A stretch of DNA of 36,959 nucleotides from a virus: positions 1 to 36,959 of the IMG/VR virus record IMGVR_UViG_3300025131_000172; one strand, given 5' to 3'. Positions within the stretch are counted from its first letter, which is position 1; each line of letters begins with the position of its first letter. Below are positions 232 to 36,315 of this stretch, one piece after another. Position numbers and translations under genes: made by a program. Below the pieces are notes generated by a model, which worked only from the letters and a program-made list of their open reading frames with translations, made no database searches and had not been told where the DNA came from.

Positions 232-3200
232 TCACTGTTCAATAAAGGCATAACCATTTTTCTTGTCAATTACAATTTGCATATCAACACAATCTTTAAG
301 ACTGTCCAGATGGGAGATAAGAAGGACTGTTTTGAAATAAGATCTAATCAAATCCAGGATATCAACAAATCCTTGCATATTTTCTTCATCTAGGGCAGTT
401 CCTGGTTCATCGAGGATGAAGAAATCCGACTTTGGAAGAGAAGAAACACTCAACAGAGCCAAGCGAATTGCCATGGCGGCAATTGTTTTCTCGGCTCCAG
501 ACCCCATTTCTAGCGGACGAGGTTCGTGGCGTGGATGTTTGATGAAAATATCAAGTCTTTTACCGTCATCCTCGAAGAAAACCTCAAAATCAACGATATT
601 TGCCAGGATTTTGGCAACCTCATCATTGATTACGGGTAATTTGCGCTTAATAACATCATAGGCTATCCCATTTGGGTGCATGCAGCGCAGGTAAAGATCA
701 TAAGAAGAGAATTCTTCCTGTAAATCAAGGTATTCGTTCCTCTGAGTTGTCAAATTATTAACTTTTTGCTCTAAAGATCCGACAGACTTATATATATCCA
801 GAATAGATGATGTACACTTTTCATGATTGCTTTGAAAATTTTGTGATTTGATTTTTAAGCCTCTTAACTTTTGTGACAAATTCCCCAGATTTTCAATAAT
901 TTCCTTATTTAGTTCATATTCTGAGACCTTTTCTTCTGATATTTCTATTTCAGACATCAAGTTTTTAATGATACTAACATTTTTCTCTATTTTAAGGTCA
1001 TAATTTGTTATTTTATTGGACAGTGCATTCTTTTTATTAACAATTTCATTGTATTTTCCTATATGATCTTCAACTTCATCGGGGTTAATCTCCTCAATAT
1101 CGTCGTTCAGGTCATCAATTTGCCCCGAGAGGTTCTCGGCCTCTTTTTCGTTGAGCGGGATGGTTGCTTTAGAAACATATGCATCCTTAATAAATTTACA
1201 TTTGGGATGTGCGGTACCACAGGGAATTCCCTGAAGCAACTGGAGCTTGTTTTTATTTCTTTTAAGCTCTTCCTCTTCTACACTCAATGAATTTTCTAAG
1301 ATTACTAGTTGATTTAATAATTCATGAACCCTTTCCTGTTTCTCAAAGAGGGCTTCCTTATCAAATTCTCCCAAAAAAAGAAGAATCTTTCGATATTTCT
1401 CCTTATCTGCATCTCTTTCTATATAAAACTCACTATTTTGGTCTGAAACGGAGATTAATTGGTTCTTTTTGTCATTTAATTCTTGTTGAACTTTCATAAC
1501 ATCTATAATTTCGGCAGGAATTGACTTTATCTTTTCATTTATTTCTCCTATTTCTTTATTACATTGAGAAATGTTGAACTTGATAGTCTCGCAGTGGTGT
1601 TTTTTCCTTTCAAGATCGTTGTTGGCATTCTCAAGCTCTTCTTGTGCAAATAAAATATCGTTATTAAAGTCTCTTCCCTCTGATTTTTTTAGGGCGCCCT
1701 TCGTATCGGATGCATCTTCTTTGGCTAATCGAAATTTATGTTCAAAAAATTCCAAATCAAGAAACTTGGCAAGAATCTCCTTTCTCTTTGTTGAACCCTC
1801 TTTAATAAAGGTAAGAGAATCGAGTTGAGAGGCCATTGATGAATAAAGAAAGTCCTCCAATGTTCCAAAAACCTTTCTAATGTTCTTGTCAGTTTGATTT
1901 CTCGTCAAACCATTGAGGCTCTCCATATCTCCAAGTGCAGGATCATAAACTGTGAATTCTACATTTGTTTTTGCTTCCTGAGTTACAGATCCTTTTAATT
2001 TTCTAGTATATTTTTCTGAATTTCTCTCAATATAATAATCCTTATCTCCGATAGAGATCTTAACCTTACCGGATCCGACTTTTTTATTTTGATTTATAAT
2101 ATTTAGGTTTTTTCTGTCGTTTTTTGATGTTGAATTGAACACTGTATACAAGATTGAATCAATAATACTCGACTTTCCAGAAAAGTTCTTTCCGAAAATG
2201 CCGACGATGCCCTCTAGGCTATCAAAATTAATGCTATTCCCGTCTGCATAATTAAATAAATTGTTCCATTCAATAGATCGAAGCCTCCAATTGATGTTTC
2301 GAGAGACCTCTTCGTTCTCCTCGGCAATCTTATTGTATTTTAAATTTAAATTAATGACCCTTTGCATCAATTCATCGTCAACCTCAAAATCTTTCAAGTA
2401 TTCTTTGATGAGTTCCTCTTGAATTTGAATATTTCTAAGGTCTTCAGTCTCTAAACCATCTGTAATATTCTGGATATCTCCTTTTTCTCCGGTTGCTCGG
2501 TTCAAAAAGGTAATGCTCTCTGGTTTAAACCTTCGTTTTGCCACCTCTGTTGCCTTCCTCATTACATCGAGGGGTAAATTGTTGTTTGAGACCAATCGAA
2601 GTCTGGCAGATTGCGGAATATTTTTGGCTGCACTTCTCGGCATCTTACCTTTTGGTGTCAATTCGATGGTCATGAAGGGTCTTGGGTTCTTAATATTAAA
2701 ATGTTGGCAAGTAAAGTCTTCCTTACTTTGAATATCCCATAGTAAAAATCCCTTGTCGTTTGTTTCGCCGTGATTTTGTTGGATTGTGGATCCAGGATAG
2801 CGAATTTTACCTTCGGCATCAAGTCTTTGGTCAGTTTTGTGAATATCTCCCAATAAGCCGTAATCATGTCCTTCAAAAATCTCAATAGGGTGCTCTCCAT
2901 GAGTCATAACCCAGCCTGTATCAGTGACAACACCGGAAACGGATCCGTGATAAAGAGCAATATTAATTTTGCTCGGATCCGAAGGTTTAACCCACCCCTC
3001 CTCATCAAAAACAGACAAAATATTTAGTGTTACATTCGCCGATAGAGGTGTTTCGCCCGATTTCTTAAGCAAGTATAGGTTTGGGTGAGCTAAAGCCTCC
3101 ACGATAGGTGTGAGGGCATCCTGACGGCTACTATTGCGCAGATTTCCGTCGTGATTTCCCAGAATGATGTAAGTTGGTGCGATATGAGCGAGATTACTCA

Positions 3201-3390
3201 AAAAATCAGAGCACATTTCGACAAATTCTGGACTAATTTGTGTTTTTGTGTGAGCAATATCACCACAATGAACGATATAATCTGGCTTTTCCCTTCTTAA
3301 AATATCATATAGCTCGTTGAAAATAATTCTGTATTCATAATGATACTTTAAATTCTTAATATGTGTGTCTGCAATGTGGGCAATTCTCAA
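232..3390 (-). CDS. 47-46: Fused Mre11-type nuclease and Rad50-type ATPase (gp47-gp46 fusion)
   Basis: A 1052-residue single chain. Residues 1-340 form a calcineurin-like phosphoesterase of the SbcD/Mre11/gp47 family: D8-x-H10, GD at 43-44, GNHD at 78-81, H148, and GDIH at 181-184. Residues 365-1052 form an SbcC/Rad50/gp46 ATPase: Walker A from G400 to S407 (GKNFSGKS), a coiled-coil arm with a C724-x6-C731 hook, signature SGAEK at 964-968, Walker B FFILDE at 990-995 and H-switch H1027. In T4 these are two proteins that resect DNA ends for recombination-dependent replication and host DNA breakdown; here both activities appear complete in one polypeptide. The start is TTG at 3388-3390, with an AGGAG Shine-Dalgarno overlapping the end of the primase gene. 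It should be co-transcribed with primase from the promoter at 4324-4358. The identification is firm; the activity is inferred from motifs. Confidence 0.95.
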   Translation of the reverse strand: MRIAHIADTHIKNLKYHYEYRIIFNELYDILRREKPDYIVHCGDIAHTKTQISPEFVEMCSDFLSNLAHIAPTYIILGNHDGNLRNSSRQDALTPIVEALAHPNLYLLKKSGETPLSANVTLNILSVFDEEGWVKPSDPSKINIALYHGSVSGVVTDTGWVMTHGEHPIEIFEGHDYGLLGDIHKTDQRLDAEGKIRYPGSTIQQNHGETNDKGFLLWDIQSKEDFTCQHFNIKNPRPFMTIELTPKGKMPRSAAKNIPQSARLRLVSNNNLPLDVMRKATEVAKRRFKPESITFLNRATGEKGDIQNITDGLETEDLRNIQIQEELIKEYLKDFEVDDELMQRVINLNLKYNKIAEENEEVSRNINWRLRSIEWNNLFNYADGNSINFDSLEGIVGIFGKNFSGKSSIIDSILYTVFNSTSKNDRKNLNIINQNKKVGSGKVKISIGDKDYYIERNSEKYTRKLKGSVTQEAKTNVEFTVYDPALGDMESLNGLTRNQTDKNIRKVFGTLEDFLYSSMASQLDSLTFIKEGSTKRKEILAKFLDLEFFEHKFRLAKEDASDTKGALKKSEGRDFNNDILFAQEELENANNDLERKKHHCETIKFNISQCNKEIGEINEKIKSIPAEIIDVMKVQQELNDKKNQLISVSDQNSEFYIERDADKEKYRKILLFLGEFDKEALFEKQERVHELLNQLVILENSLSVEEEELKRNKNKLQLLQGIPCGTAHPKCKFIKDAYVSKATIPLNEKEAENLSGQIDDLNDDIEEINPDEVEDHIGKYNEIVNKKNALSNKITNYDLKIEKNVSIIKNLMSEIEISEEKVSEYELNKEIIENLGNLSQKLRGLKIKSQNFQSNHEKCTSSILDIYKSVGSLEQKVNNLTTQRNEYLDLQEEFSSYDLYLRCMHPNGIAYDVIKRKLPVINDEVAKILANIVDFEVFFEDDGKRLDIFIKHPRHEPRPLEMGSGAEKTIAAMAIRLALLSVSSLPKSDFFILDEPGTALDEENMQGFVDILDLIRSYFKTVLLISHLDSLKDCVDMQIVIDKKNGYAFIEQ

Positions 3391-3399
3391 ACTTCTCTC

Positions 3400-4323
3400 C
3401 TATAAATTAGAAATTGCCGAAACCAAGGAATCCTCTTCCTTAATAAGCGGTGCATTCTGACTTAAATTCTTAACTTCTTCTTTGGACATATCACCTATGT
3501 CCCTCTCGTCATCATATTGTATTTCACGGATCTCAATTCCGTATTTCAAAAACAATCTTTTGATGTTTTCAGCCTTGTATTTTGCATCTGGGTCTAATGC
3601 CAACAAAATTGGTGTGTCGTTTTGAACTATTCTTCTGAATATTCTCGATGTTTCTCTAATCGTTGATCCCAAAATAGGAATCGCGTTTTCGGCTTTAACG
3701 GCATCGAATGCACCTTCAACAATTGTTACCTCCTTATCAAAATCAACGTATAATTCATTGAATATGATGTCTCGACTAACTGGGGGATTTAAATATCTTT
3801 TGTAGTTGTCGATAAATGTTCTCGCAATAAAATAGTTAAGGTCACCGCTTTCGTTAAAAGACGGGATAATAATCCTTCCCTTATACGGACCATCGGAACA
3901 AAAGCCCATCTTCCACTTTAAGATGTCTTTTTTATCAATTCCGCGATCTTTAAGATATTTTAGGGGTGTCTGGAACCTCTTATTGCCGCACAAACTCTTA
4001 AAACTTGGTGGCATTTGTAATATCTGTTCAAAATTTTCTTTCTCGTCTTCTTCGAAGAGGTTATCAAACCCATTTAAATCTGTTTTTTCTCCCGAAAGAG
4101 CTTTCCAAGTTTCTTGTTGCTTAAAAGATCCAAATCGACGTATTAATCGATAGAGACTTCGACCTTTTGCATCACAAATCCAACATTTATAAACTCCGCG
4201 CTTAATGTTGACAGAAAATTTTCTTTTATGATGTTTACAGTAGGGGCATTGAAAAAGATGTTCATCATTTGACTCATAATAAGATCCAAGAATGTCTGAT
4301 AACAGAGAGATTTTTTCTTTCAT
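3400..4323 (-). CDS. 61: DNA primase, T4 gp61/DnaG-like (zinc finger plus Toprim)
   Basis: A 307-residue protein when started at the ATG at 4321-4323. It carries a CHC2-type zinc-binding module with cysteines 26, 29, 47 and 50 (CPYC...CWIC), then the DnaG-like core, and a Toprim domain with the catalytic glutamate E203 in IVEGAFDAVK and the acidic pair D244-x-D246 in LALDPDA. Such enzymes synthesise the RNA primers for lagging-strand replication together with the phage helicase; no helicase gene is in this window. The open frame reaches upstream to 4413, but those starts would overlap the preceding gene and put non-conserved sequence before the zinc finger, so the shorter start is chosen. A sigma70-type promoter ends right at this ATG. 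The stop TAG at 3400-3402 overlaps the ribosome-binding region of the nuclease-ATPase fusion. Confidence 0.92.
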   Translation of the reverse strand: MKEKISLLSDILGSYYESNDEHLFQCPYCKHHKRKFSVNIKRGVYKCWICDAKGRSLYRLIRRFGSFKQQETWKALSGEKTDLNGFDNLFEEDEKENFEQILQMPPSFKSLCGNKRFQTPLKYLKDRGIDKKDILKWKMGFCSDGPYKGRIIIPSFNESGDLNYFIARTFIDNYKRYLNPPVSRDIIFNELYVDFDKEVTIVEGAFDAVKAENAIPILGSTIRETSRIFRRIVQNDTPILLALDPDAKYKAENIKRLFLKYGIEIREIQYDDERDIGDMSKEEVKNLSQNAPLIKEEDSLVSAISNL

Positions 4324-4358
4324 ACTCTTAGTATAGCATCTGATATCTTCTTTGTCAA
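4324..4358 (-). promoter_or_regulatory. Sigma70-type promoter for primase and recombination genes
   Basis: On the minus strand TTGACA (4353-4358) is followed by a 17-base spacer and TATACT (4330-4335), an 11 of 12 match to the bacterial housekeeping consensus with ideal spacing. The spacer ends in TGC, so no clear extended -10. The predicted first transcribed base, seven positions after the -10 element, falls on 4323, the A of the primase ATG. The promoter lies after the stop codon of the upstream 198-residue gene and before the replication/recombination genes, where an early promoter read by host polymerase would be expected. Promoter activity is an inference from sequence. Confidence 0.7.
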
Positions 4359-4366
4359 GAACTATT

Positions 4367-4963
4367 TTAGTTTTTTTGCTCTGGCTCTTCGACAGCATAT
4401 CCGGTTTTTCCAAATAAGTTTTTATTATTGATAAACTTCTTTATCATAATATCAATATCTGGTATTGGGGCATCAGGATTGGTTTTTATTTGTGTTTCGA
4501 CATCTTTGAACATTTTTTCCATAAATTCTGTTTCTAAACCATCATCAACTAATTTTTGAAGACCATCATCGAGATTGAATGCGTCTAAAACTGGATTTGC
4601 TTTTGTAACCTCGTCTTCCTCCTGCCCATAAGTTTTATAAATCCCCCTTATTCTATTTACGACATTTTTTGCGGCGACGAGGCCGCCGATGACTGGCACA
4701 AATAAGGCCACCATGTCCATTACATCGCTGCCCAAATCTTTTGCCATCTGCTTTTGTTTTTCTCGACTAAGTTCGCCAGCTTTTACTGCTTGTGCGATTT
4801 TCAGCGTCTGATCCAACTGTCTCCAAGTTAATTTTCCGGCCTTCATTTGCTCTCTTGACTGGGCGCGCTCTTCTTCCTGATCCTGTCTTTGTGCCTCTTC
4901 TTTCCATCCTTCATTTATTTCAAAATTTCTCCAATTTTCCATAATAAGCTTCATTTTAGACAT
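4367..4963 (-). CDS. Conserved phage protein of unknown function, possible internal head protein
   Basis: A 198-residue protein. The N-terminus contains MENWRNFEINEG followed by a highly charged, Gln/Glu/Arg-rich helix (residues 20-75), then a hydrophobic stretch around residues 83-105 (MVALFVPVIGGLVAAKNVV) and an acidic C-terminal part with LVDDGLETEFMEKM and PIPDIDIMIKKF. I remember this combination of a short MxxWRxF start and a VDD...PIPDID tail from unannotated proteins of marine T4-like phages, which is recollection rather than a search. The short aromatic N-terminus resembles the capsid-targeting leader of T4 internal proteins (MKTYQEFIAE), so packaging in the head is one possibility; a membrane protein is another. 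Starts at 4963, 4954 or 4942 are all possible; the first follows the resolvase stop by six bases. It ends just upstream of the primase promoter. Confidence 0.8.
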   Translation of the reverse strand: MSKMKLIMENWRNFEINEGWKEEAQRQDQEEERAQSREQMKAGKLTWRQLDQTLKIAQAVKAGELSREKQKQMAKDLGSDVMDMVALFVPVIGGLVAAKNVVNRIRGIYKTYGQEEDEVTKANPVLDAFNLDDGLQKLVDDGLETEFMEKMFKDVETQIKTNPDAPIPDIDIMIKKFINNKNLFGKTGYAVEEPEQKN

Positions 4964-4969
4964 TTTAGA

Positions 4970-5482
4970 CTATTTCCCTTGTAATAAATAGTGTCCAGCG
5001 CGGGCAACAACAATTGCATCTGCAATATCATAGCAATATTTTTGAACATTTCCAAATCTGGTATAAATAATCTCAAATTCTTTACTTTCAATGAAGTGCT
5101 CCATAACAACTTCTTTTGCCTTCTTGCCTCGGGCTATTTTTATGCCACATTTAGAGCGAGCACTGATCGGACTTACATAGTTCGGTTCCATATCATATAT
5201 ATTATAGCACATCCAAGATATAATGCCATTAAATCGTTGAAGAATTGACATAGTTTTGGCAGTCGAGCCGCCTCTTCGGAAAAACATGAGAGCTTGTTCT
5301 ATAAAAATGTGTTTTACATCGTATTTTTCTTTAACCTCTTTTAAAGTTGTTTCTACTTTTCTGGCTTTTTCAAAGAATGAACCAGTCTTGCGTAAATCAA
5401 TATAGTCTGTATAAATTATTTTGTCATTTTCGAGGATACAGACGCCTATAATACTTGTACTTATATCAAGTCCTAAAATCAT
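4970..5482 (-). CDS. ruvC: RuvC-fold Holliday junction resolvase
   Basis: A 170-residue protein with the RNase H-fold acidic tetrad of RuvC: D6 in MILGLDIS, E62 in FIEQAL, and D152 and D155 in CYDIADAIVVA, with spacing close to that of bacterial RuvC (D7, E66, D138, D141). Such enzymes cut four-way DNA junctions; in a T4-type phage a resolvase (there the unrelated endonuclease VII, gp49) removes branches so that DNA can enter the prohead. Here a RuvC-type enzyme could fill that role. Its ATG overlaps the stop of the preceding virion gene (TAATG at 5480-5484), so translation is probably coupled and the gene probably belongs to the late transcript. The catalytic residues are visible; the role in packaging is inferred. 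Confidence 0.9.
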   Translation of the reverse strand: MILGLDISTSIIGVCILENDKIIYTDYIDLRKTGSFFEKARKVETTLKEVKEKYDVKHIFIEQALMFFRRGGSTAKTMSILQRFNGIISWMCYNIYDMEPNYVSPISARSKCGIKIARGKKAKEVVMEHFIESKEFEIIYTRFGNVQKYCYDIADAIVVARAGHYLLQGK

Positions 5483-6636
5483 TAGATATCCACTTTTAGT
5501 TTAAAGGTTAAGTTTCTTTCCGTGGTCTTTTTAACCGGTTTTGCGACCGATGCGATGGCTATCAAATTTTTGTCTTTATCATAGATGCCAATTTTTGAAA
5601 TATAGGTAGTTTTCTGAAATGAACCGGTGGGATCTGGATATGGAGTTTGTACAACGTTTGTTATAGCTAACTTTGCGGGCTCTTCGAAAACATAGGCACC
5701 AGAAACATAAGACTTGGCTTGTCCGAACTCAACGCAAGTGGGATTATTTGAATGATTCATCTCGCCTTTTTCTGCGTGTGCAAACATTGTCAAATTTGGA
5801 ACATAATTTCTACCCTGGAAAAGAAGGGAATAGCTAGAACTTGGAATTAGGCCGGCCGGATGGCCGTCGTTTGCACCCACCCCATAATAAATCCATGAAG
5901 GGGGCACCGGGATTCCATCATTATTGTAGTCGGCGGTGAAGGGCGTCGCGAGCGCCCAGGAGCCGGTTAAAAGAATAAAACCTTCATTGTATAAGATAAC
6001 ACCCCCGACAGAACCGGAGATGGTTTCAGCACTTCCTGATGGTCCGACTTGGACCAACTCTCCATTTTGTTTTGTGTCTTGGAGTTCCCCCACGAGAGTT
6101 CCTGATACATAAAATTTTAAATCCACTGTTCCTTTTTTTATTGAAGATCCATAAAAAATTGAAGGAATAGAAATGAGACTTCCCGTGCCATTATAATTTG
6201 AAACCGATGTAAACGTTTTGCTCCAATATGAATAATAATCTAGCGTATTTCGTAAAGCACCAAATCTAGAATCTAACGACGACGTAAATACATGCCGACT
6301 AATACTCGCAGAAAGAGGATAGGAACCCGTCAAGGTGGCTCCGTACTCCATGCCGTCAAAGGTTGCAGCCGAAATGCTTGTAAATCTGTCAAGATCGCTA
6401 GTCTTGGTAAATAAGGGCAAAATGAGACCCGTAGCCGCTGCATTGCGATCAATATTCATCTCATATAGTGAAACAAAACCAGAAGGAACATTACGCTCGT
6501 CGGCAGAAAACGCCCCACTAGTGACGGTACGATCATTGTAGTGGAGCTTTGAATCGTAAACATCAATCTTTACTCTTGGATTTGTCTCCAAAATATTGTA
6601 AAGTAGATCTTTTTTCTCAAACTTTTTAAACGTCAT
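5482..6636 (-). CDS. Putative virion structural protein, paralogue of the preceding gene
   Basis: A 384-residue protein rich in Ser, Thr, Gly and Tyr, typical of beta-rich phage tail proteins, with no recognised enzyme motif. It is clearly related to the 342-residue product of the gene before it (6669-7697). The last 39 residues align without gaps (ISKIGIYDKDKNLIAIA against ITTVGLYSADNELLAVA, ending LTFKLKVDI against LTLRIRLDY). Further matches are the segments ILYNEGFILLTGSW/LLYYQAGIAVLTASV and NHSNNPT/NYSSNPT. The ATG at 6634-6636 has no obvious Shine-Dalgarno, only AT-rich sequence in the 32-base gap. The stop overlaps the resolvase start. A role as an outer tail, fibre or baseplate component is inferred from neighbours and composition. 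Confidence 0.85.
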   Translation of the reverse strand: MTFKKFEKKDLLYNILETNPRVKIDVYDSKLHYNDRTVTSGAFSADERNVPSGFVSLYEMNIDRNAAATGLILPLFTKTSDLDRFTSISAATFDGMEYGATLTGSYPLSASISRHVFTSSLDSRFGALRNTLDYYSYWSKTFTSVSNYNGTGSLISIPSIFYGSSIKKGTVDLKFYVSGTLVGELQDTKQNGELVQVGPSGSAETISGSVGGVILYNEGFILLTGSWALATPFTADYNNDGIPVPPSWIYYGVGANDGHPAGLIPSSSYSLLFQGRNYVPNLTMFAHAEKGEMNHSNNPTCVEFGQAKSYVSGAYVFEEPAKLAITNVVQTPYPDPTGSFQKTTYISKIGIYDKDKNLIAIASVAKPVKKTTERNLTFKLKVDI

Positions 6637-6668
6637 AGTATTATTAATTAGTCATTTTTTATAATAAT

Positions 6669-7697
6669 CTAATAATCTAATCTAATTCTCAGCGTTAATT
6701 CATTTGTCGGGTCTTTCTTAAGGGGTTCTGAGACCTTGGCAACCGCCAGGAGTTCATTGTCCGCAGAATAAAGCCCAACTGTTGTGATATAAGAAAGTGG
6801 CATGTCAGTTTCGACAACCTTAACCCGTATTTGACTTTGACTAAGATAAGTTGGATTTGAACTATAATTAAATTCACTAGTCATAGCTCGACAGAAATAG
6901 ATTGTTGAATTCAGTTCGGTTGTATTATTAAAATCAGAGTTATTCCACCTATTTCTCAAGCCATCAGCGGAAGAAGATATCTCCGAGCCAGTTAAGACCG
7001 CATCTATTGATGAAGTATCATAGGTTGCATCGGGTGCTCCAAATTCTCCATCGAAAACAGAAGCAGTTAAAACGGCAATTCCTGCTTGATAATAAAGAAG
7101 ACCAACACCGGTACCCTCTACCGCTAAAGAAGAGGTATAAAGAACCGCGTATTCTCCTACAGGAGAATTTACCAAATAGCTGGTGTTTGCTCCGTGATCT
7201 TCCAATACAAGAGGGTGTGAGACGGCCGAGGGGGCGCCCCCCGTCATAAGAGTCAAGGCAAAGGTGCCTTTTTGAATCTCATCTTTGGTCAATAAACGGG
7301 CGAAATCAATGAAAATGCACTCTTTTAGTTTGGTGCCCGAAGATAAATCTCCATCGCGATCAAATTGTCGAATGTTCCCAGTATCATCGTAACCGACCAG
7401 AACCTGGGCCATTTGATTATACATATTAATCTTTTTGGCATTTTGAACGGATGCCGATGATGACAGAGAAGAATCCGAAGAATATCCAACGCTAATATCA
7501 AAAATGTGATTTGCGGAAGAACTTAAAAACGGATAATCATATACCGATTGAAACATGCCATGAGCATAGTTCTTAATATTCTCGTCATTGTAGGTTCCCG
7601 ATACTATTGTCCCAGTAATGGGGATTGCTTCGTTCAAGAGAGTTCTTGTATTAGCTATATCCTGATCTGGAATGATATTTTTAAATGTTACGGCCAT
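6669..7697 (-). CDS. Putative virion structural protein, first of a tandem paralogue pair
   Basis: A 342-residue protein of beta-rich composition with Ser-rich patches (SSDSSLSSSASV around residues 74-85). It shares a conserved C-terminal module and several internal segments with the next gene product (5482-6636), indicating a tandem duplication followed by divergence. The C-terminus (residues 304-342, ITTVGLYSADNELLAVA to LTLRIRLDY) is the best conserved part and probably a folded attachment or oligomerisation domain. The ATG at 7695-7697 is preceded by an AGGAAATAAGAA ribosome-binding region. The gene follows the 300-residue virion protein by 13 bases. No family name is certain, and a tail or baseplate role comes from its position in the structural run. 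Confidence 0.85.
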   Translation of the reverse strand: MAVTFKNIIPDQDIANTRTLLNEAIPITGTIVSGTYNDENIKNYAHGMFQSVYDYPFLSSSANHIFDISVGYSSDSSLSSSASVQNAKKINMYNQMAQVLVGYDDTGNIRQFDRDGDLSSGTKLKECIFIDFARLLTKDEIQKGTFALTLMTGGAPSAVSHPLVLEDHGANTSYLVNSPVGEYAVLYTSSLAVEGTGVGLLYYQAGIAVLTASVFDGEFGAPDATYDTSSIDAVLTGSEISSSADGLRNRWNNSDFNNTTELNSTIYFCRAMTSEFNYSSNPTYLSQSQIRVKVVETDMPLSYITTVGLYSADNELLAVAKVSEPLKKDPTNELTLRIRLDY

Positions 7698-14190: not shown

Positions 14191-15132
14191 CTAACTACAA
14201 AGGTCATCTGAATCAATATTAGTCCCATAAATATCGGCTGCCACCAATTGAATTTGTTGTGTTCCTTTAATAAGTATTCCTCCATCAATATTCGAATCAC
14301 CATAAATATTAAAATAGTATTCTACATTCGAAGGTCCTGGCGCCGACTCAAGCACATATTCATCATCTACAGGATCCAGCAAAATATTATTAACAATATT
14401 TAAATTTGGACCCTGAGAATTGAAGGTCAAAGGAATGAGTTCTTCATTGGGGGCACCCTTATTATTTATTTGGAAAACCTCTAGATCAAAATTTTCCATT
14501 TTAAAATCTACATTTTCCTCTGTGAGTTCCAACAAAATATAATCTGCCTCAACCGACAAATATGTCTTATCGGCCGCTGGCTGTGATATAACCGTGGCAG
14601 CATTAGGGGGCTCAGTTGTGGTGGTAGTATCAGAAAATGATCTAACCCTCACTTTACACTTGACTGTAGACTCTATTTGTGTTATCCTTTTGCCGAAAGA
14701 GGAAGTATAATTTGTATTAACACTTCCTGTGATTTCTCCAGCATACATTTTTAAATTATAGGCTGGATAATAATCATTTTTTAGGGAGGATTTTCCCAGA
14801 ATTTTATTTAATGCTTCACTCGCCAAAACTTCCGTGAGAACAACTTTGCTATATCCGGTTGCAGCGCTAGGATCCGGAACTGTTACTGTGACGGTCTCTG
14901 TATTTTTGGACGTGAATTTATTTTGTGTCTGCAATTGGGGAGAATCTTCTCGAATTCGTGCATCAATATCATTTTGAGCTTCGATAACCCCCCCATATTC
15001 CCCGTCATATAAGATATTATCATCAAAAAATGCATAATAAGCAGGCTTAAACTTGCCATTTGATAAGAGGAACTTACCATATTGAGTTAGTTTAATGTCC
15101 AAGACTTCTTCTTTTTTATCCATAAAAAGCAT
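14191..15132 (-). CDS. Putative tail/baseplate protein with conserved N-terminal module
   Basis: A 313-residue protein. Residues 8-45 (EVLDIKLTQYGKFLLSNGKF, then KPAYYAFFDDNILYDGEYG) match position by position the N-terminal module of the 300-residue protein at 7711-8613 (LDAVLTDAGRERLARGDGSF, then KITKFSLGDDEINY). The rest is beta-rich and Thr/Asn-rich. The MDKKEEVLD start is a pattern I recall from marine T4-like phage virion proteins without known function. The ATG at 15130-15132 overlaps the stop of the giant 2950-residue gene (TAATG) and has AAGGA nine bases upstream, so it is preferred over the later ATG at 15121-15123. A structural role is inferred from homology to its neighbour and from position. 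Confidence 0.85.
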   Translation of the reverse strand: MLFMDKKEEVLDIKLTQYGKFLLSNGKFKPAYYAFFDDNILYDGEYGGVIEAQNDIDARIREDSPQLQTQNKFTSKNTETVTVTVPDPSAATGYSKVVLTEVLASEALNKILGKSSLKNDYYPAYNLKMYAGEITGSVNTNYTSSFGKRITQIESTVKCKVRVRSFSDTTTTTEPPNAATVISQPAADKTYLSVEADYILLELTEENVDFKMENFDLEVFQINNKGAPNEELIPLTFNSQGPNLNIVNNILLDPVDDEYVLESAPGPSNVEYYFNIYGDSNIDGGILIKGTQQIQLVAADIYGTNIDSDDLCS

Positions 15133-18100
15133 TATTTAAGATCCTTCTTTTTTATGATTCTTTCCGATTTTACGCGAGTTTCTATTGTTGTCTCCGCGTC
15201 TAGGTGATCTTCCATGGTTCGTCGCCCCGTATAATTTATATCCTCACCATAAGTAGCAGGTAAGGGAACTTGTGAGGCACTTGGTAGTGTTTTTATAGTG
15301 GCGTCTGTAGGCATAATTGAACCAAAATTAACACTTGCGTCTATTTTTGCAAATTCGACCATTGAAAAATAATCATATGGCCAATTATATCCAAAAAGCT
15401 CTGTATTAGAATTATTTACCGCTTTAGATGCCACAGATGTTCCTCCAATATTGGGAGATCCTACAATATTGCTATAATAATTAGTTTCGGCCCTCTGTTT
15501 TACTTTGAATACCACCCATTTGACATTCCCCTTTAGACTATCCATCATTTCGCCCCTCAACAAAGGATGAGAGACAGTCGCAGTAGCTTGTTTAAACGAA
15601 GTTCCAAATTTAGGAGAAAGATTTTGCCACATATAAGATAGATCGTTTTTATCAAACGTATGATCGAACTCGAAGACATACATGGCTAATTTATCGGCCT
15701 TAGAATTTCTCACAAAATCAAATTGTGGAGGGAAAACGTACTTATTTAGGCTAACTTCTAGTTTTGCTATTTCTTTTGAGCTTGCAGGGATCCTAAAAAA
15801 TGCTTTTTGACAATTATCAACCTCTCTAAATGGAATTGCCACGATTGCTTCGTAGACAGTCTTAGAATCCCTTAATTGACCAAGTTTTCGAGCGTCCTTT
15901 TCAAAGCCCACAACATCGGCTAGAGAATCCAAAGAAGAAGGATAAAAAGTACCAGGAAATTCATTATGTTGAAGAAAATCTGCATCTATATTGCCGACAC
16001 TTAAATAGATTCCCCCTTTCTCTTCCGGGATTAAACCAAATTGGTGCCACATGCCAATAGGAGTTGTGGTTTTGCCTCCAAATCCAAGGCCCTGTGCGGT
16101 GAAAGCTGTGACTGGGTGGTTGTCGGAATATTCAGCACAAGGAAGAGCAATATTTTCATATGATAGTGGCCTTTTTGTCTTGTCACCGAAATTAAGAATT
16201 GGAGTTTCAAATTTCGTCTGAATGGTCCATCGATTATCCGGATCCTTTCGGAATAAATTAACAGAGGCTGATATCTGCATTGCAAATTTATTCGCATGGG
16301 CCGGCATCATGGGAAAATCATCCAATGACCATGGATCACTTGCAGGCCATACTTGCGAACTAGGATATATTCTTAAATAATTTACCGAAGCAGAAGCAAG
16401 TACTTCTGTTAACGTGACAGAGCCAGTATTGGGGCCGCTATTATATATAATATCAGCCCACGATTCTCCATTGTAATATGGAGGAGTGAACGACGGATTT
16501 AATCCCCATGTACTATCTGCCTGGAATGTTCCACTTACAACCTGATCACTTCCTGCGACGGGTGGACCAAATGCAGTTGGGCGGCTATACATAGTTATGG
16601 TCTCATAAAGAGATGATCCGGTCATGGGATAATCTTGAGGAACAGAGAATAGCAAAGGAGATTCTCTTTCCTTATTCATACTTCTATACATTTTTATCCT
16701 CATTCCATAAGATGTTTCGGGTGCAAATATAAACTCTTCCTCCTTGTTGGATTTTATTGTTACTAACTCGTTTAAAAAGAAGTTTGGCACCTCTCCTAAA
16801 AAGTTGTTTATCATCATCTTATATTGATTTGGAGAATTTGGTGCATTTAAAATAGAATAACTCGATGAAATTGATGGCGAAAGAGCGTTTGTAAGTTTGG
16901 AAAATAAATTAATTTCCATATCCATCATTGATATATTATTCACCTCTTCCGGATTTAATAATTTTTCAAAATTAAATCTGTAATCCCATCCGGCTGTGCT
17001 GAGGGATCCGGTGCCCAATGCGCGATACCCTGTGACATCGGATAGGATCGGCGGCCCAGGAGAGGCAACCCCCGTCGTATAGAAGACGGTATTATAAGAG
17101 CCAGTATAAATTGGATAATCTACTGCCACTCCCGATTTAATTGTATTAAATAAAATCCCTGGTGAAAAAAGAGGAGAATAAATGGGTCTCAGCTTGAGAG
17201 GATCCGACACAGAACCATTAACTAGGGCGCCCGACGCCGAACATGTTATATAGGATGCATATGATTGAGAAAATGCATTTGCAATCTCTAGAGTCCTCTC
17301 TGCTGGATAAAACCCGTCGTAAGGAATGAATTTCATCAAAGCTTTGCAAGAAAGGGTCAAAGTTTGTGGCAAATCAAACTCTTTATGATCTTCATCAAAA
17401 ACTTCAAAATATTCCATAAAATCAGAGAAAGAATAAATGCGATAAAAATTATCCTCTGAGCTATTTTGGGGCGCTGATGAAGAATCCACACCAAAAATTG
17501 AAAATGATGCTGTATTTTCGGAAACAAAACCATTTGAATCCGTTAAATATTTTTGAATATGATCTCCAATTCTAAATTCAGGGATCAAAGACATGTCTTG
17601 ATTTTTTAATCTCATATTAAGATTATATTGTTCGTACTTATCGTAAAACGGAGTGGCAGAAGCACTCACGAAAACACCGCCTTCAACATATCCCGCAAAT
17701 TTATCAGCCTCAAATTTGGCATTTCCTCCGCGATTTAATAAAGTGCCATATGGCCTTGGGAATAGAACGGGCAGCGCTGTGGGAAAGTTTTCATATGAAG
17801 TTAAATAAACAGTGCTAGTTGAATTTGTAACTATAGACTCCATTCCGGTAGGAGTTACAACCGAATATTTACTTAGTACATCTTGCTTTCGCGAAAGAAT
17901 TGGAGCGGGACGCAAATATGATGACGACGCTAGCGGGATAAAAGCTGCCGAGCCATAATAAAATGTGTAATCATTTTGAAGTTCACCGGATGCCCCAGTC
18001 ACATAATTTGGCGCTATATATGAAGATAACCCCTCGGTGTCCCCGGCGGATGGGCCTGTAGCGGGACATGGCTCCCCGAACTGTTGTGCTGCATCGAGAG

Positions 18101-21100
18101 CCCAGGCGCTTTGAGTCCTCGCAAATCCTTGCGAATTATCTCCTCCAAATTTAGATTCTCCAAGAGTTGTTCTTTCCAGCCGAGAATCTTTCCAGAATGT
18201 GTTCTGATATCCCAATCTTTCTCGATTTTCTTTGGAATAGCAATTAAATGGTGCAGGATAAATCTGCTCTGAATATGAAAGATAGCCGAATTCTCTTACA
18301 GGACTTTCTGATTGATCCAATGCGTTGTTGGTATACAAATCTAAAATCGCTCTATATGCAGTCTCTGAATCATCTTGCATCAAGTTTAGATCTTTTGTTA
18401 TTTCTCTATTAGCAAATTTTGAAAGATAATTGCCGTATGTGCTCATAAGTTTGGTTAATTCTAAAGAATAGTAAGAAGGATAATTTTCATTTTCAACCTC
18501 TTTCGCAATTTGGAGACCATGACGCAGTGGCTTATATTTGCTGATAATGACCGGATCATTGACGACTTTTAAAATGGGATTTGATCTTATTTGTGAGGTG
18601 CTATTTAAATTTGGAGAATAATCTCCCGCTGTAATGCCCAGGCTGCTTTTCATATCCTTCATATATGCAGTTTTGCCATGGTTATTCCAATATCTCACCA
18701 ACGGATTTTCGTTTCCTCGAATTTGTTTCCACGAAGGATGTTGATAGGGGCCATTGCGCTTTAATAATATAGCATTTAATAGTGCAGCAGGGCCGGCATC
18801 ATAATCAAATGCATCTTGATTAGTAAACCCATCTGGAATTAGAGCGGAATTCACATAATCTGAAATATTTGCAACCGAGGGCCTATATCCTATGAAAGAA
18901 TTTGAATATTCCAAAGGCTCGTAAACATTATAATTAAGCCAATTATAAACCGTTGGAATATAGTAGCTCGAAGTAAAAGAATAAGATCCACCTGTGCCCG
19001 ATACGGGCAGAGAATTTTTATTAAATCCAAAGACATAAAAATTCTGTGCTGGTGGACCTGCAAAGGGGTTTTTTTGATAATGTATTGATACATAATCACT
19101 CGCAGAAGAAAAGGTTACAAGAGAAATGGGTCCACTAGACGAAGAAACTTCTCCAGAGTAAGGAAGATAACCAAAGGTATCACATGAAAGAGCCGAAGCT
19201 GTTATCCATGCATACTGCATATCAGTTCTCGGAATCGGATGTTGAATCCAATAGTTGTCATGTACCGAAGCTGTTATGGTCGTTGAGCCAGAATCCTTAA
19301 TCTGCTTGATGGTATTCCTATTTACCTGATAAATGCTTCCTGTTCCAATATAATTTAGCGAATTAACCACCGAGGGTCCGTTTCCTATTCCAAATTCATC
19401 AGAATAAAAACCAAATTGATTAATGTGGGAAGATAAAAGGAGTCTATAGGGATCTCGGACGGAAGTATTTCTATAGTTTAGGCTATTATAAGGAGAATAC
19501 TCTGCCGATGTAGGATCTAGTGCGGGGCCGCCATTCGAATCGCCCGCCGTCTCTGGAGATCCGGGAGAAGAGAAGCGATTAACGAAAACATGCTCTGTTC
19601 TTCCGCGTTGGGGCTTTACATAATCGTCCATTCCAGCAACATATGGAGAAGGAATGTCAACAATACCAAATCCTCCTGACTTTACAAATGCCGTATTATT
19701 AATACTACGCCCGCAAGTTTGAACTATTTCATAATCTCGACTATAATTTCCTGCTTCGTTTGTAGCTGAATTATTTTTTATATTTCTGATGTTTATCGGT
19801 CTTTTTGCGATCAAATCACGATAAAAAGTTGCACGAGGCAAAGTAACAGGCTGGTAAATCACCTTTAGTGCTGTCGGGCTCGTTTGGAATTGAAGACTCC
19901 AACCTTCTGGGCGATTTGTATCGTTATCAGCGCCTTGATTAAGCGGAACATGCCTATATTGATGTCCTCCCACATATTTTTCCGTGAATGGTCCTTGAAG
20001 TGGGGCATCTCCCTGTCCATAACCGTCCAAATGAAGATTTTCTATTCCAAAGCCCGGCTTAAATCCTGTTTCGAGCACGGTATTGTAGCCAGTTGTAACC
20101 GAAGAGCTAATTGCCACGAAAGGAGCAGTTAAATCTCCCTCTGTTGTTTGATAATCTCCGCTTTTTACTTGATTTTGTCCCTCAAAGGACCATTTTTGCT
20201 TTTCAATCGGATAAATTATGTCTTGGCAATCCAAAAAGTCCTTGACTTTAGACTCTTCAATCAAATATCCGTCCGAAGAACCAAATTCAATCGATGATTT
20301 TATATAATTTGTTATTTTGTTGTTAGATTTGACGTTAGAACCATAAATTTCTTCTCTTTTCACAGAAAAGGCGACTGGTGTACTATAACTTCTATTTAAA
20401 ACTGATAAACTGGCGGCCAAAATAGCATTTCTATCGGCATCAACTCCCGCATCACCCGAACTTATTACAGGATTTGTTCTATCTGCTCTATTTTTCCACC
20501 AAAAACAGTGCTCATTGGCAGGGGGAGGAGAAGAAGGGAGCGATGTGTGATTAAGGCGCCATGTATTAAGTGCAACATTAACACCAAGAGTCGCCGCAGT
20601 ATAATCAAACATTTGTATTCCGAAGAGGGGGAGCTTATTTCGGTATTTGTTTCTTTCCAAGACGTGACTTTCAATCATCGTTCTGATGCCATCGGATACC
20701 TCGGAGCTTGCAGGGATTAACTCCATCAACATTGCAGACAAAGAGGTATCAATCCACTTATAATAGTTAATATATTTTTCAATATCGGGCGAATTTTCAA
20801 CATTTTCAAAGAAAATTTGCCTTAGATATTCCATATCTTTATAGCGACCACGATAACGATTGGTGGGTTCTCCTATAAGATTGCTAAAGGCGACAATAGA
20901 AGCAAAATAATTTAACATTTCTTGTGTTATTGTATTATACATGCTTTTTTCAATCATATAATAATAATTTACCGGTCGTTTGGTGCGTGTGAAGACCTCT
21001 TCTTCCGCAGTGGGAGGTATAATTCTGATGGTTGCATAGGTTGGGTTTAAAATTTCTGGATTTTGTGCCAAAGCAGTCGGAATATATTCCGCGTTTACTA

Positions 21101-23984
21101 TGGTCGTACTAGCGGGATAAAAATCTCCCCTTCCTGTATGTTGCCTGTTGACTACATTACCCATCCAAGAGTACCTGTCTATGGTTTGTAGGGAGCCCGA
21201 TGACAAATCTTGCAGCGTATATCCGCCCACGGTGTCTGAGGTCTTTATTTCATCAAAATTCCAATAAAGTGCCAGTGTTTCAATCTTTGGTATTTCTGTA
21301 CCGGTCAGGGAGGTTGCAAAATTATAAGCATTTTCATGAGGGTATTTCACTCCAAAATTATTTGGATCCTGCGCGTGACTCTTGATGGTTCCATTATCTA
21401 AATAATCAAGCCAATATCTTAAGGAACCAACTCTAATGTCGGTCTTGTATAAGATAGAGCCTGTAAAATTTTGTCTATGGGATCCCGCATAAATTCTTTT
21501 TGATTTATTCAAATAATTTTGCAAACCAACTGATGAAACCGAAGAAGTAGTAAGAGTAAACTCCTCGCGTACCACATCGACCATAGAATTAATACCATAA
21601 AATTCTAATTTATAATTTGTATTGGCAGTTCCAGAAACCAAGTTTGCATGAACTTTTTCTGGCGCCAACCTAACTGCAAAATTCCACTTATTATTTTGAT
21701 ATACATCTTTGAAAGTATCAGTTGTCAGTTTTATGCCAAAATAGGAACTGGTTAACATAAAATAAGCATCAGTTAGGTTATCATTATTCTCGGGTCGAAT
21801 GGCATATATACTTAAATCGTAATCTATCGAAGGCCAAGTGAAGCTGTCTGGTGAACCCGAATTTACTGTGTGGAATCCAAAAATAGAGGCGGTGTTAAAG
21901 GGGGTTGTAAAATAATCTTCTTGATAATATTTTTTCTTCGTCGGAAAAATAACATCGATTTCTGCTGTAAATGCTGTGTAATCTTCTAAGGCCGAGTTGG
22001 ACGCTGTTATAAAAGAAGTGCTATCGGGATTTCCACTTGCCGTTTGTTGATAAATTGTAGAACCGAAGTGTTGAGGCAGGTAAAAATCAGTATACCTTTT
22101 TTTAGTGGAAGTGAAAGTATAATTATCTTGAAGTTCATAAGTGGTATTATTCGCATATAAATTAAGATTTATTAAATTGTCGCCCACCCCATAGCATCTT
22201 ATTAAATTTCTAAAGGACTTTTCTGTGCCCTTGGATTTATAAATGTATAAAAGGTTATTATAAATGTTGCTGTAAATTAAATTCTTGATCTGAGCCAAAT
22301 CTTCTTCAAAGACTTCTGTATCCGATTTATTAAAAATCTGATTAATGAGAGGTGCATCTATGAAAACTTCTGGTGCAACAAATCCCGCACCCTCTATGAC
22401 GCTATCTATGAAAGGATTTTCTTTAAGATGGCTTCCACTAAAGTAACTTATATCTTTTAATTTTGGAAGCTGTTCAATTTGTAAATGGAGAGTATCAAAA
22501 TAGCTTGACATTGCTTGTGTTAATTTTTTCAGATCTCCGTTACTGTCATTGTCCCCGTCAATAACCCAGTTCGGAAAACTATTATAAAATGAAGAGTTAT
22601 TTGTATAATCATAAACTGAACCAGAGTTTTTCATCTCTGTCAAGACAGCTTGGACCAGGGGGTTTACCGAATAAATAATTGGATCCTTAAATTCGGATGT
22701 TTCAACACCCGACTCTACAATGGCGGATCCGGCCTCTCTTGCGGGAGATGTATAGCCGATCCACGAACCATTTGAAACACGACCGGAATAATCCAAAGTT
22801 GTTGAGTCGATTGAATTAATTCCGGAGATTCCTTCATTAAACTTGTAATAAATACCAAGCGTCGTATTCGATATATCTGTGTTGGTGCCTCCGTAAACTT
22901 GTGTGAACCAATTTCTACCAATTTCTTCCGAAGTTCTCTGCGTTTTCCAATAGCGGAATTCGTCAAGGGATCCGGTTAATTTACCAGAGCCCAGAACCGT
23001 TCCGGACTCGCCAGGGTAGTGAGCTATCAGAGCCCCGATATTCGCGTGAAGGGAACCAGTTATCTCTACTGGCTGATTGGTTGTTGTTGAGCCGCTCGCA
23101 AGAGTTCCATTTAAATATAATTTCCACTCTGCAACAGACCCGGAATTCACATATGAAACAGCAACATGATTCCAGGAGCCAGTTGAGATTAGGGCGGTAA
23201 CAGTAGGAATATAAGAATTAGAAACACTTTCTGCCCGGTAAAGGCAATTAAATCTCACGTTCGTATCATCGGCAGTTATGGAGACATTAAACCGACCATC
23301 GTTTGTTCCACTTAAATCAAAAATGGACTCACCAAGGGGAGGGGCGCCGGCGGTGGGCAGCGCTTCGGCCCACGTTGGCTTCTTAAGCCAAAATTCGACT
23401 GTTATTCCACTATCTGGATCACATTTAAGATTGCTCTCTCGCGTCCCTTTTCCTGTATATCCAACATCGTCGTATATATCTGTATCATAGACATTTGATT
23501 CTTCGAAGGTTTCTTCAAACCTTTTGCCAATCATTCCCTCGGATGCAGTATGGGGACCGCCGACCATATGTATGTATTCATTAGTGTTAGTTGAGGCCCA
23601 AGCAACCGTAGTCCCCGTTGTCCCAATATATCCCTCTGTTAGTCCGTGGTTTATATAGCCGTTTGTTCTGGGATATTTCTTTTCCATCAACCAAAGATCG
23701 ATATATGTCGATTCATTTAAGAATGTCTGCTTTTCAGCCGAAGATCCATCATAAGGATAATTTTCATAAATTCTTGTTATGCCGTCTTCGTAGTATTTTT
23801 CAGCGGATCCATAGCGGGCGAAATTCTCTGGCTTGCTAAAATCTACTTCTGGAATAAATCTATTGCGGTTTTTGAAAGTTTCGCTTATATTATCTAAAGA
23901 TTCACCGTCCTTCCTTAGTTCAGATGGATCCGAAGAAAATAATTTATAATTTTCGCCTTTTGTAAAAAGGTCCTTGATGCTCAT
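15132..23984 (-). CDS. Giant virion protein (2950 residues) with LamG-like lectin domains
   Basis: A 2950-residue protein of about 325 kDa. Residues 190-410 form a laminin-G/concanavalin-A-like domain (GITVEFWLKKP, SWNHVAVSYVNSGSVAEWKL, GSLDEFRYWKTQRTSEEI). A second, weaker LamG-like region lies at about 660-920 (FTAEIDVIFP, NKWNFAVRL, IRVGSLRYWLDY). Between them, around residues 575-600, LLYIYKSKGTEKSFRNLIRC recalls the helical KGT-containing motif of P2 gpI-type tail proteins. The remainder is Ser/Tyr/Pro/Gly-rich beta-type sequence. LamG folds usually bind glycans or proteins, so a host-surface contact role is plausible. In position it follows gp6 and the 491-residue gene, roughly where T4 has gp7, but at almost three times the length. 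The ATG directly follows the previous stop (TAAATG), suggesting coupled translation. No frameshift is seen along its length. Confidence 0.88.
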   Translation of the reverse strand: MSIKDLFTKGENYKLFSSDPSELRKDGESLDNISETFKNRNRFIPEVDFSKPENFARYGSAEKYYEDGITRIYENYPYDGSSAEKQTFLNESTYIDLWLMEKKYPRTNGYINHGLTEGYIGTTGTTVAWASTNTNEYIHMVGGPHTASEGMIGKRFEETFEESNVYDTDIYDDVGYTGKGTRESNLKCDPDSGITVEFWLKKPTWAEALPTAGAPPLGESIFDLSGTNDGRFNVSITADDTNVRFNCLYRAESVSNSYIPTVTALISTGSWNHVAVSYVNSGSVAEWKLYLNGTLASGSTTTNQPVEITGSLHANIGALIAHYPGESGTVLGSGKLTGSLDEFRYWKTQRTSEEIGRNWFTQVYGGTNTDISNTTLGIYYKFNEGISGINSIDSTTLDYSGRVSNGSWIGYTSPAREAGSAIVESGVETSEFKDPIIYSVNPLVQAVLTEMKNSGSVYDYTNNSSFYNSFPNWVIDGDNDSNGDLKKLTQAMSSYFDTLHLQIEQLPKLKDISYFSGSHLKENPFIDSVIEGAGFVAPEVFIDAPLINQIFNKSDTEVFEEDLAQIKNLIYSNIYNNLLYIYKSKGTEKSFRNLIRCYGVGDNLINLNLYANNTTYELQDNYTFTSTKKRYTDFYLPQHFGSTIYQQTASGNPDSTSFITASNSALEDYTAFTAEIDVIFPTKKKYYQEDYFTTPFNTASIFGFHTVNSGSPDSFTWPSIDYDLSIYAIRPENNDNLTDAYFMLTSSYFGIKLTTDTFKDVYQNNKWNFAVRLAPEKVHANLVSGTANTNYKLEFYGINSMVDVVREEFTLTTSSVSSVGLQNYLNKSKRIYAGSHRQNFTGSILYKTDIRVGSLRYWLDYLDNGTIKSHAQDPNNFGVKYPHENAYNFATSLTGTEIPKIETLALYWNFDEIKTSDTVGGYTLQDLSSGSLQTIDRYSWMGNVVNRQHTGRGDFYPASTTIVNAEYIPTALAQNPEILNPTYATIRIIPPTAEEEVFTRTKRPVNYYYMIEKSMYNTITQEMLNYFASIVAFSNLIGEPTNRYRGRYKDMEYLRQIFFENVENSPDIEKYINYYKWIDTSLSAMLMELIPASSEVSDGIRTMIESHVLERNKYRNKLPLFGIQMFDYTAATLGVNVALNTWRLNHTSLPSSPPPANEHCFWWKNRADRTNPVISSGDAGVDADRNAILAASLSVLNRSYSTPVAFSVKREEIYGSNVKSNNKITNYIKSSIEFGSSDGYLIEESKVKDFLDCQDIIYPIEKQKWSFEGQNQVKSGDYQTTEGDLTAPFVAISSSVTTGYNTVLETGFKPGFGIENLHLDGYGQGDAPLQGPFTEKYVGGHQYRHVPLNQGADNDTNRPEGWSLQFQTSPTALKVIYQPVTLPRATFYRDLIAKRPINIRNIKNNSATNEAGNYSRDYEIVQTCGRSINNTAFVKSGGFGIVDIPSPYVAGMDDYVKPQRGRTEHVFVNRFSSPGSPETAGDSNGGPALDPTSAEYSPYNSLNYRNTSVRDPYRLLLSSHINQFGFYSDEFGIGNGPSVVNSLNYIGTGSIYQVNRNTIKQIKDSGSTTITASVHDNYWIQHPIPRTDMQYAWITASALSCDTFGYLPYSGEVSSSSGPISLVTFSSASDYVSIHYQKNPFAGPPAQNFYVFGFNKNSLPVSGTGGSYSFTSSYYIPTVYNWLNYNVYEPLEYSNSFIGYRPSVANISDYVNSALIPDGFTNQDAFDYDAGPAALLNAILLKRNGPYQHPSWKQIRGNENPLVRYWNNHGKTAYMKDMKSSLGITAGDYSPNLNSTSQIRSNPILKVVNDPVIISKYKPLRHGLQIAKEVENENYPSYYSLELTKLMSTYGNYLSKFANREITKDLNLMQDDSETAYRAILDLYTNNALDQSESPVREFGYLSYSEQIYPAPFNCYSKENRERLGYQNTFWKDSRLERTTLGESKFGGDNSQGFARTQSAWALDAAQQFGEPCPATGPSAGDTEGLSSYIAPNYVTGASGELQNDYTFYYGSAAFIPLASSSYLRPAPILSRKQDVLSKYSVVTPTGMESIVTNSTSTVYLTSYENFPTALPVLFPRPYGTLLNRGGNAKFEADKFAGYVEGGVFVSASATPFYDKYEQYNLNMRLKNQDMSLIPEFRIGDHIQKYLTDSNGFVSENTASFSIFGVDSSSAPQNSSEDNFYRIYSFSDFMEYFEVFDEDHKEFDLPQTLTLSCKALMKFIPYDGFYPAERTLEIANAFSQSYASYITCSASGALVNGSVSDPLKLRPIYSPLFSPGILFNTIKSGVAVDYPIYTGSYNTVFYTTGVASPGPPILSDVTGYRALGTGSLSTAGWDYRFNFEKLLNPEEVNNISMMDMEINLFSKLTNALSPSISSSYSILNAPNSPNQYKMMINNFLGEVPNFFLNELVTIKSNKEEEFIFAPETSYGMRIKMYRSMNKERESPLLFSVPQDYPMTGSSLYETITMYSRPTAFGPPVAGSDQVVSGTFQADSTWGLNPSFTPPYYNGESWADIIYNSGPNTGSVTLTEVLASASVNYLRIYPSSQVWPASDPWSLDDFPMMPAHANKFAMQISASVNLFRKDPDNRWTIQTKFETPILNFGDKTKRPLSYENIALPCAEYSDNHPVTAFTAQGLGFGGKTTTPIGMWHQFGLIPEEKGGIYLSVGNIDADFLQHNEFPGTFYPSSLDSLADVVGFEKDARKLGQLRDSKTVYEAIVAIPFREVDNCQKAFFRIPASSKEIAKLEVSLNKYVFPPQFDFVRNSKADKLAMYVFEFDHTFDKNDLSYMWQNLSPKFGTSFKQATATVSHPLLRGEMMDSLKGNVKWVVFKVKQRAETNYYSNIVGSPNIGGTSVASKAVNNSNTELFGYNWPYDYFSMVEFAKIDASVNFGSIMPTDATIKTLPSASQVPLPATYGEDINYTGRRTMEDHLDAETTIETRVKSERIIKKKDLK

Positions 23985-36025: not shown

Positions 36026-36315
36026 TATTCACCTTCTCCTCCTTGCAATAAATCAAAAATATCTCTTTTATCATCGGGGGTTAGCCCGACTTGCTTAGAT
36101 TCTTTTTTCTGGAGAAGGGCTGAAATTTTAACCAACTGTTCATTGGATCTTTGAAGTGTTTCAACATATTTGGCAGCCGTTACACCGACTTCGCGATGGC
36201 GCTGCTCATCTTTACTTAAATAAACCATTACATCGTCCAATAAGCGACGAGTAACATCGCGATCTTTTCGAATGTTATCAATTGCTTCATCGATATATTT
36301 TACAAATTTTTTCAT
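36025..36315 (-). CDS. Small helical protein of unknown function
   Basis: A 96-residue, highly charged and predicted all-helical protein (KYIDEAIDNIRKDRDVTRRL, later VETLQRSNEQLVKISALLQK) with heptad-like hydrophobic spacing, so a short coiled coil is likely. No signal peptide or membrane segment. It overlaps the sigma-factor gene by an ATGA (36312-36315) and the amidase gene by a TAATG, so all three are probably co-translated. Position between a gp55-like factor and a baseplate lysozyme leaves open whether it is a transcription accessory factor, a baseplate chaperone or a virion protein. It does not resemble T4 gp33 by eye. Confidence 0.8.
   Translation of the reverse strand: MKKFVKYIDEAIDNIRKDRDVTRRLLDDVMVYLSKDEQRHREVGVTAAKYVETLQRSNEQLVKISALLQKKESKQVGLTPDDKRDIFDLLQGGEGE

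Follow-up and report, generated by a model that had tools for sequence, protein, structure and literature searches.

Proteins in which Mre11 and Rad50 are joined in a single chain have been known since 2011, when Yoshida, Claverie and Ogata described the domain order considered here in Mimivirus R555, Bacillus phage 0305phi8-36, bacterial plasmids, and several eukaryotes (PMC3175470). The same study found many relatives on viral scaffolds in aquatic metagenomes, with phage primases among the neighboring genes, and reported two departures in the nuclease motifs: a histidine for the third aspartate of the motif I–III signature, and an aspartate for His-206 in motif V, which is likewise found in R555 (PMC3175470). 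The C terminus of Mre11 was placed about 28 Å from the N terminus of Rad50, a distance for which a linker of 9–12 residues suffices (PMC3175470). Here we compare with these systems a fusion gene found in a viral DNA stretch of 36,959 bases, referred to below as the window.

Both Halves Are Encoded in One Frame

The gene occupies one end of the window.

232..3390, minus strand: Mre11-Rad50 (SbcD-SbcC, gp47-gp46) fusion gene, 1052 amino acids, TTG start, stop codon at 232–234 (frame translation, Pfam, PHROG, and full-length homologues 99–41% identical)

Translation of the minus strand across this interval gave 1052 codons and a stop codon, with no internal stop, and the plus-strand reading was full of stops. 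An AGGAG ribosome-binding sequence is present just before the TTG codon, where it overlaps the stop codon of the upstream primase gene. The sequence-only reading had placed counterparts of Mre11 (gp47) and Rad50 (gp46) in one uninterrupted 1052-residue chain; it had given the right coordinates and no strand, and the proposal was borne out on the minus strand. Pfam matched Metallophos at residues 1–156 (E = 1.1e-14, above cutoff), AAA_23 at 373–614 (4.2e-9) and SMC_N with its best stretch at 811–1029 (4.7e-14), all far beyond chance. PHROG matches also covered both halves, the best family being the SbcC-like phrog_77 (5e-47). Because both halves lie in one chain, the ratio of Mre11 to Rad50 is 1:1, as had been proposed.

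Domain Organization and Predicted Structure

The domains of the fusion are listed from the N terminus, all on the minus strand.

2686..3390, minus strand: calcineurin-like nuclease core, residues 1–235, with DxH 8–10, GDIAH 43–47, GNHD 78–81, H148 and GDIH 181–184 (Pfam, AF2 model, motif alignment)
2491..2685, minus strand: capping-type region, residues 236–300, inferred boundary (AF2 strand and helix pattern, Foldseek match to the nuclease and capping domains of Staphylococcus aureus SbcD, 7dog)
2317..2430, minus strand: helix-loop-helix, residues 321–358 (helices 321–331 and 339–358), matching the Rad50-binding end of Mre11, function inferred (AF2 model; position as described for Thermotoga maritima and the fusions, PMC3175470)
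2293..2316, minus strand: eight-residue linker between the halves, residues 359–366 (AF2 model, helix end at 358 and first Rad50 strand from 367)
1756..2292, minus strand: Rad50 ATPase lobe I, residues 367–545, with Walker A 400–407 (Pfam, AF2 model, motif alignment)
679..1755, minus strand: antiparallel coiled coil, residues 546–904 (AF2 model)
232..678, minus strand: Rad50 ATPase lobe II, residues 905–1052 and stop codon, with signature 964–968, Walker B 990–995 and H1027 (Pfam, motif alignment)

The AF2 model, built from 38 sequences, had a mean pLDDT of 79 and a pTM of only 0.47, which makes its arrangement of the domains relative to one another unreliable. In order along the chain, the model contains a nuclease fold, a capping-type region (about residues 214–297 by secondary structure), a helix-loop-helix, the linker, lobe I, the coiled coil (∼360 residues in total, apex at 722–731), and lobe II. 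Foldseek matched the model to SbcD nuclease and capping domains (7dog, 6s6v_A), to SbcC (7yzp_C), and to the Mre11-Rad50-Nbs1 complex of Chaetomium thermophilum (7zr1). The fusion thus has the capping region of the Mre11/SbcD proteins together with a C-terminal helix-loop-helix of the Rad50-binding type, whose contact with Rad50 is predicted. The nuclease had been thought to stand directly before the first ATPase lobe; in fact about 130 residues of capping region and helix-loop-helix intervene. With one frame, the nuclease first and a short linker, the protein has the properties of the Mre11/Rad50 fusion proteins.

Catalytic Motifs and Their Conservation

Motif alignment showed that every residue named in the sequence-only reading was correctly placed (D8, H10, GD 43–44, GNHD 78–81, H148, H1027, both Walker motifs and the signature). 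The ABC ATPase set is complete, as had been claimed, with Walker A GKNFSGKS at 400–407, signature SGAEK at 964–968, Walker B FFILDE at 990–995, and H1027. Conservation extends to all of the 105 dereplicated homologues (described below) for K406, S964, G965, E967, D994, E995 and H1027 on the ATPase side, and for D8, H10, G43, D44, N79, H80 and H148 on the nuclease side. The claim of a full phosphoesterase set stood in part: the DxH, GD, GNHD and H148 elements are present, as is a fifth motif, GDIH, and all five are invariant in the 105 homologues. However, this motif V (residues 181–184) has an aspartate at the place of His-206 of Pyrococcus furiosus Mre11, and the nuclease motif set is not fully canonical because of this replacement. 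The aspartate is invariant within the clade. Judged from the motif, the enzyme may depart from the archetype in its activity or in the metal it prefers.

The motif V aspartate in place of His-206 would be in keeping with a fused protein that has no nuclease activity and serves as a purely structural DNA tether. Aspartate can bind metal as well, however, and the other metal-binding residues and the tested ATPase residues vary little or not at all among the 105 homologues. Moreover, the same substitution occurs in unfused phage nucleases, the Demerecviridae proteins of PG07 and PSTCR5, which have GDLH. We therefore regard the tether as improbable.

The Fusion Is the Ordinary Form in Its Phage Group

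Since one metagenomic contig makes up the whole window, the question arises whether two neighboring genes were joined by an assembly or sequencing artefact. A first scan of IMG/VR with the window protein gave 55 best-matching loci; seven were fragments, one (L039) was interrupted by an insertion, and 47 had one uninterrupted full-length frame, with identities from 99 down to ∼41%. A profile scan of IMG/VR gave at least 478 relatives, and the best 80 of these were examined together with three from genome contigs. Single complete frames were found at 81 of the 83 loci, the exceptions being a fragment at a contig end and a gene broken by a run of N. Some contigs are common to both scans; with the window and Microcystis phage Mel-JY01 the proteins numbered 130, and 105 after dereplication. 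The same frame thus recurs across many IMG data sets at 41–99% identity, and fusions are deposited for isolated, cultured phages too (Mel-JY01, LMTA-57, XacN1 and pT24, compared below). Because 47 complete IMG/VR homologues share the same continuous frame, an assembly join is excluded, and we give an artefact of any such kind practically no credence.

Both scans keep best matches and so describe the phage group of the window, not all phages. Within this group the single frame is the only form found, in 47 of 47 complete, uninterrupted loci and in 81 of the 83 further ones, and the novelty implied by the sequence-only reading is not supported. The sequence-only reading had itself named beforehand what would count against it, namely databases in which this phage group ordinarily has the fused form; this is what they show, since homologues across the IMG/VR scans carry the same single frame. 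The fusion is ordinary within its phage group, and its kind has been known since 2011. Settling this point avoids announcing as new a fusion that is already known. With fusion as the rule across a large phage group, structural studies have in these proteins a convenient single-chain form of Mre11-Rad50.

A host or cellular copy was also considered and rejected, and the one scan of genome contigs gave only three relatives. One is on a 24,260-base contig equal in size to an IMG/VR virus record, and another is on a 7.8-kb contig of a metagenome-assembled genome (MAG). The third (L146, CP070664.1, 898217–916091) lies in a candidate division WOR-3 MAG chromosome, in a phage-like stretch with RuvC-like and primase-like frames and the fusion, the gene being broken by the N run in which the stretch ends. 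It probably represents either an inserted phage or phage DNA that scaffolding brought into the MAG.

A search with phrog_77 of eight contigs of 78–193 kb carrying relatives found no second Rad50, barring one marginal piece (E = 0.002) with three stops. As candidates for a second, unfused nuclease, PF00149 gave one extra small phosphoesterase each in three contigs (frames of 220–238 amino acids), lying at a great distance and too short for gp47.

Two distant homologues, L039 (about 6570–7370) and L058 (LR756508.1, about 2570–3600), each carry an interruption immediately behind one and the same nuclease motif, GDIHK, and in each case the initial part runs on into a tail of the EExxLxxYxxxGW type and then a stop. 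By eye, the insert of L039 has a frame resembling a LAGLIDADG endonuclease, and that of L058 a cysteine-rich frame of homing-endonuclease appearance. Rfam detected no introns in these two homologues or the window at E ≤ 0.01.

Gene Neighborhood

Two genes of DNA metabolism lie upstream of the fusion as conserved neighbors.

3400..4413, minus strand: DnaG-type primase, directly upstream of the fusion (phrog_47, 1.1e-43)
4970..5482, minus strand: RuvC-like Holliday junction resolvase (phrog_159, 5.7e-16)

Among the 113 loci with enough upstream DNA, a primase relative was near the fusion in 109, mostly directly ahead of it, and a RuvC relative in 105. This neighborhood bears on whether the protein might be a defense-type SMC/ABC nuclease, Lamassu or Wadjet-like, instead of a replication and recombination enzyme, since Foldseek also returned JetABC and Lamassu SMC subunits. 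However, the core replication surroundings, the best family match to SbcC-like phrog_77, and the failure of Pfam and PHROG to recognize, in the nine proteins of the window that were scanned, any partner gene of such systems all argue against a defense function, which we consider very unlikely.

Elsewhere in the window, two very large minus-strand frames of 2950 and 1878 amino acids (15132–23984 and 27660–33296) stand in a baseplate/tail block near gp25- and gp6-like genes. The protein of 606 amino acids at 34205–36025 (minus strand) has an Amidase_2 domain at residues 219–287 and is possibly a baseplate-borne lysin. The frame at 36312–36881 (minus strand) weakly matches the late sigma factor of the T4 gp55 type (phrog_234, 2.6e-6).

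Proposed Function

The domain content and order, the catalytic conservation, the recurring fusion, the conserved neighborhood, and the finding of no other Rad50 in eight long contigs from relatives make it highly probable that the phage has a single Mre11-Rad50 (gp47-gp46) nuclease for end processing, encoded by this gene and united in one chain by a fusion that was fixed before the phage group radiated. By analogy with the family, two fused chains would pair via their nuclease domains and, with ATP, via their ATPase lobes. Such a homodimer would constitute the usual M2R2 machine and take the place of the heterotetramer. The helix-loop-helix of the nuclease side would sit on the root of the coiled coil, with the eight-residue linker running to the first Rad50 strand. 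Broken or replicating ends of DNA would be the substrates that the enzyme processes, in the service of recombination-dependent replication and beside the primase and the Holliday junction resolvase. Enzyme activity, homodimer assembly and the role in replication are ascribed from the family, and a search of the literature found no biochemistry for any member of the window clade.

The Hook at the Coiled-coil Apex

The apex of the coiled coil carries a pair of cysteines in an unusual spacing.

1198..1221, minus strand: C-X6-C hook CGTAHPKC, residues 724–731 (apex loop 722–731 in the AF2 model; homologue conservation)

The CXXC zinc hook has been described as conserved throughout all life forms and in viruses as well (PMC5093744), and all nine unfused phages sampled have hooks of the CXXC type. 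Among the 105 homologues, however, 91 have C-X6/7-C (conserved cassette PCGxxxPxCKFIKDA), 11 have CXXC in a different conserved cassette, YDPDCxxCCENxFVKDA, and three have other forms. Zinc binding by C-X6-C is putative. The zinc hook family PF04423 gave no match to the window at E values as high as 10, and the match of T4 gp46 was weak and below cutoff; the missing match alone says little, because the CXXC relatives tested also lack it.

In a head-domain tree the CXXC form needs seven changes, six of them forced by supported branches, and three to four hook changes are forced by supported branches in trees of the nuclease alone, the ATPase alone, or the flanking coiled coil; all of these are quick trees without bootstrap. 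The two cassettes alternate among close relatives, and sister proteins such as L093 and L114 differ in hook type. Even in a tree of the apex-proximal coiled coil from which the hook had been removed, the hook types do not form one clade, which points either to a short exchanged segment or to local switching. It is possible, although we put it forward tentatively, that the two cassettes have been swapped several times among close relatives and that the hook is an exchangeable dimerization module with its own pairing specificity, perhaps separating the Rad50 arms of co-infecting phages. The alternating cassettes would make it testable whether hook chemistry decides the pairing partners. Phage hooks other than CXXC were not evident from titles and abstracts in the literature, subscription journals being mostly outside that scope. 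With similar reserve, the novel part of this locus might be the hook rather than the fusion.

Origin of the Fusion and Comparison with Known Systems

An origin tree was made from 18 fused and nine unfused phage proteins, the unfused halves being concatenated. It needs three changes between the fused and split states, all forced by supported branches. The group of the window falls in one large fused clade with Mel-JY01, uncultured phages of 484 and 735 kb, and Tenacibaculum phage pT24, for which a fusion has also been deposited. The protein of Listeria phage LMTA-57 adjoins that of the unfused Staphylococcus phage 812, and that of Xanthomonas phage XacN1 stands among the T4-like proteins; because they branch among unfused phages, these two represent independent fusions or reversals. 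Owing to long branches, the placing of pT24, XacN1 and the 735-kb phage is unsure. A recurrent origin of the fusion, as suggested by this tree, agrees with the 2011 proposal (PMC3175470). PHROG families 77 and 100 seem to include fusions as well: of the 967 positions of phrog_77, T4 gp46 begins at 293, and T4 gp47 covers only 29–377 of the 989 in phrog_100, the extra columns presumably coming from fused members.

T4 gp47 and gp46 are homologous to the two halves and have the same catalytic layout, but they are encoded by two genes separated by 46.1 and 46.2, with GHFH as motif V and a CPTC hook. LMTA-57 gp101 (1009 amino acids) and XacN1 ORF305 (1099 amino acids) are likewise single-chain fusions, yet they differ in having a GHxH motif V and a CXXC hook. 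The Mel-JY01 protein (WWT39521.1, 1066 amino acids) is a single-chain fusion with 30% identity over 99%, a GDIH motif V, and a primase-like gene just upstream; it differs in its canonical CXXC hook and in one small ORF between primase and fusion. From their published description, R555 and the aquatic viral fusions of 2011 have in common with the window protein the domain order, the capping region and helix-loop-helix between the halves, the short linker, the histidine for the third aspartate (GDxxH), the motif V aspartate, and phage primases on the scaffolds. By the same description, R555 has 1351 amino acids and a coiled coil of cellular length, whereas the window protein, with 1052 amino acids, has a shorter one.
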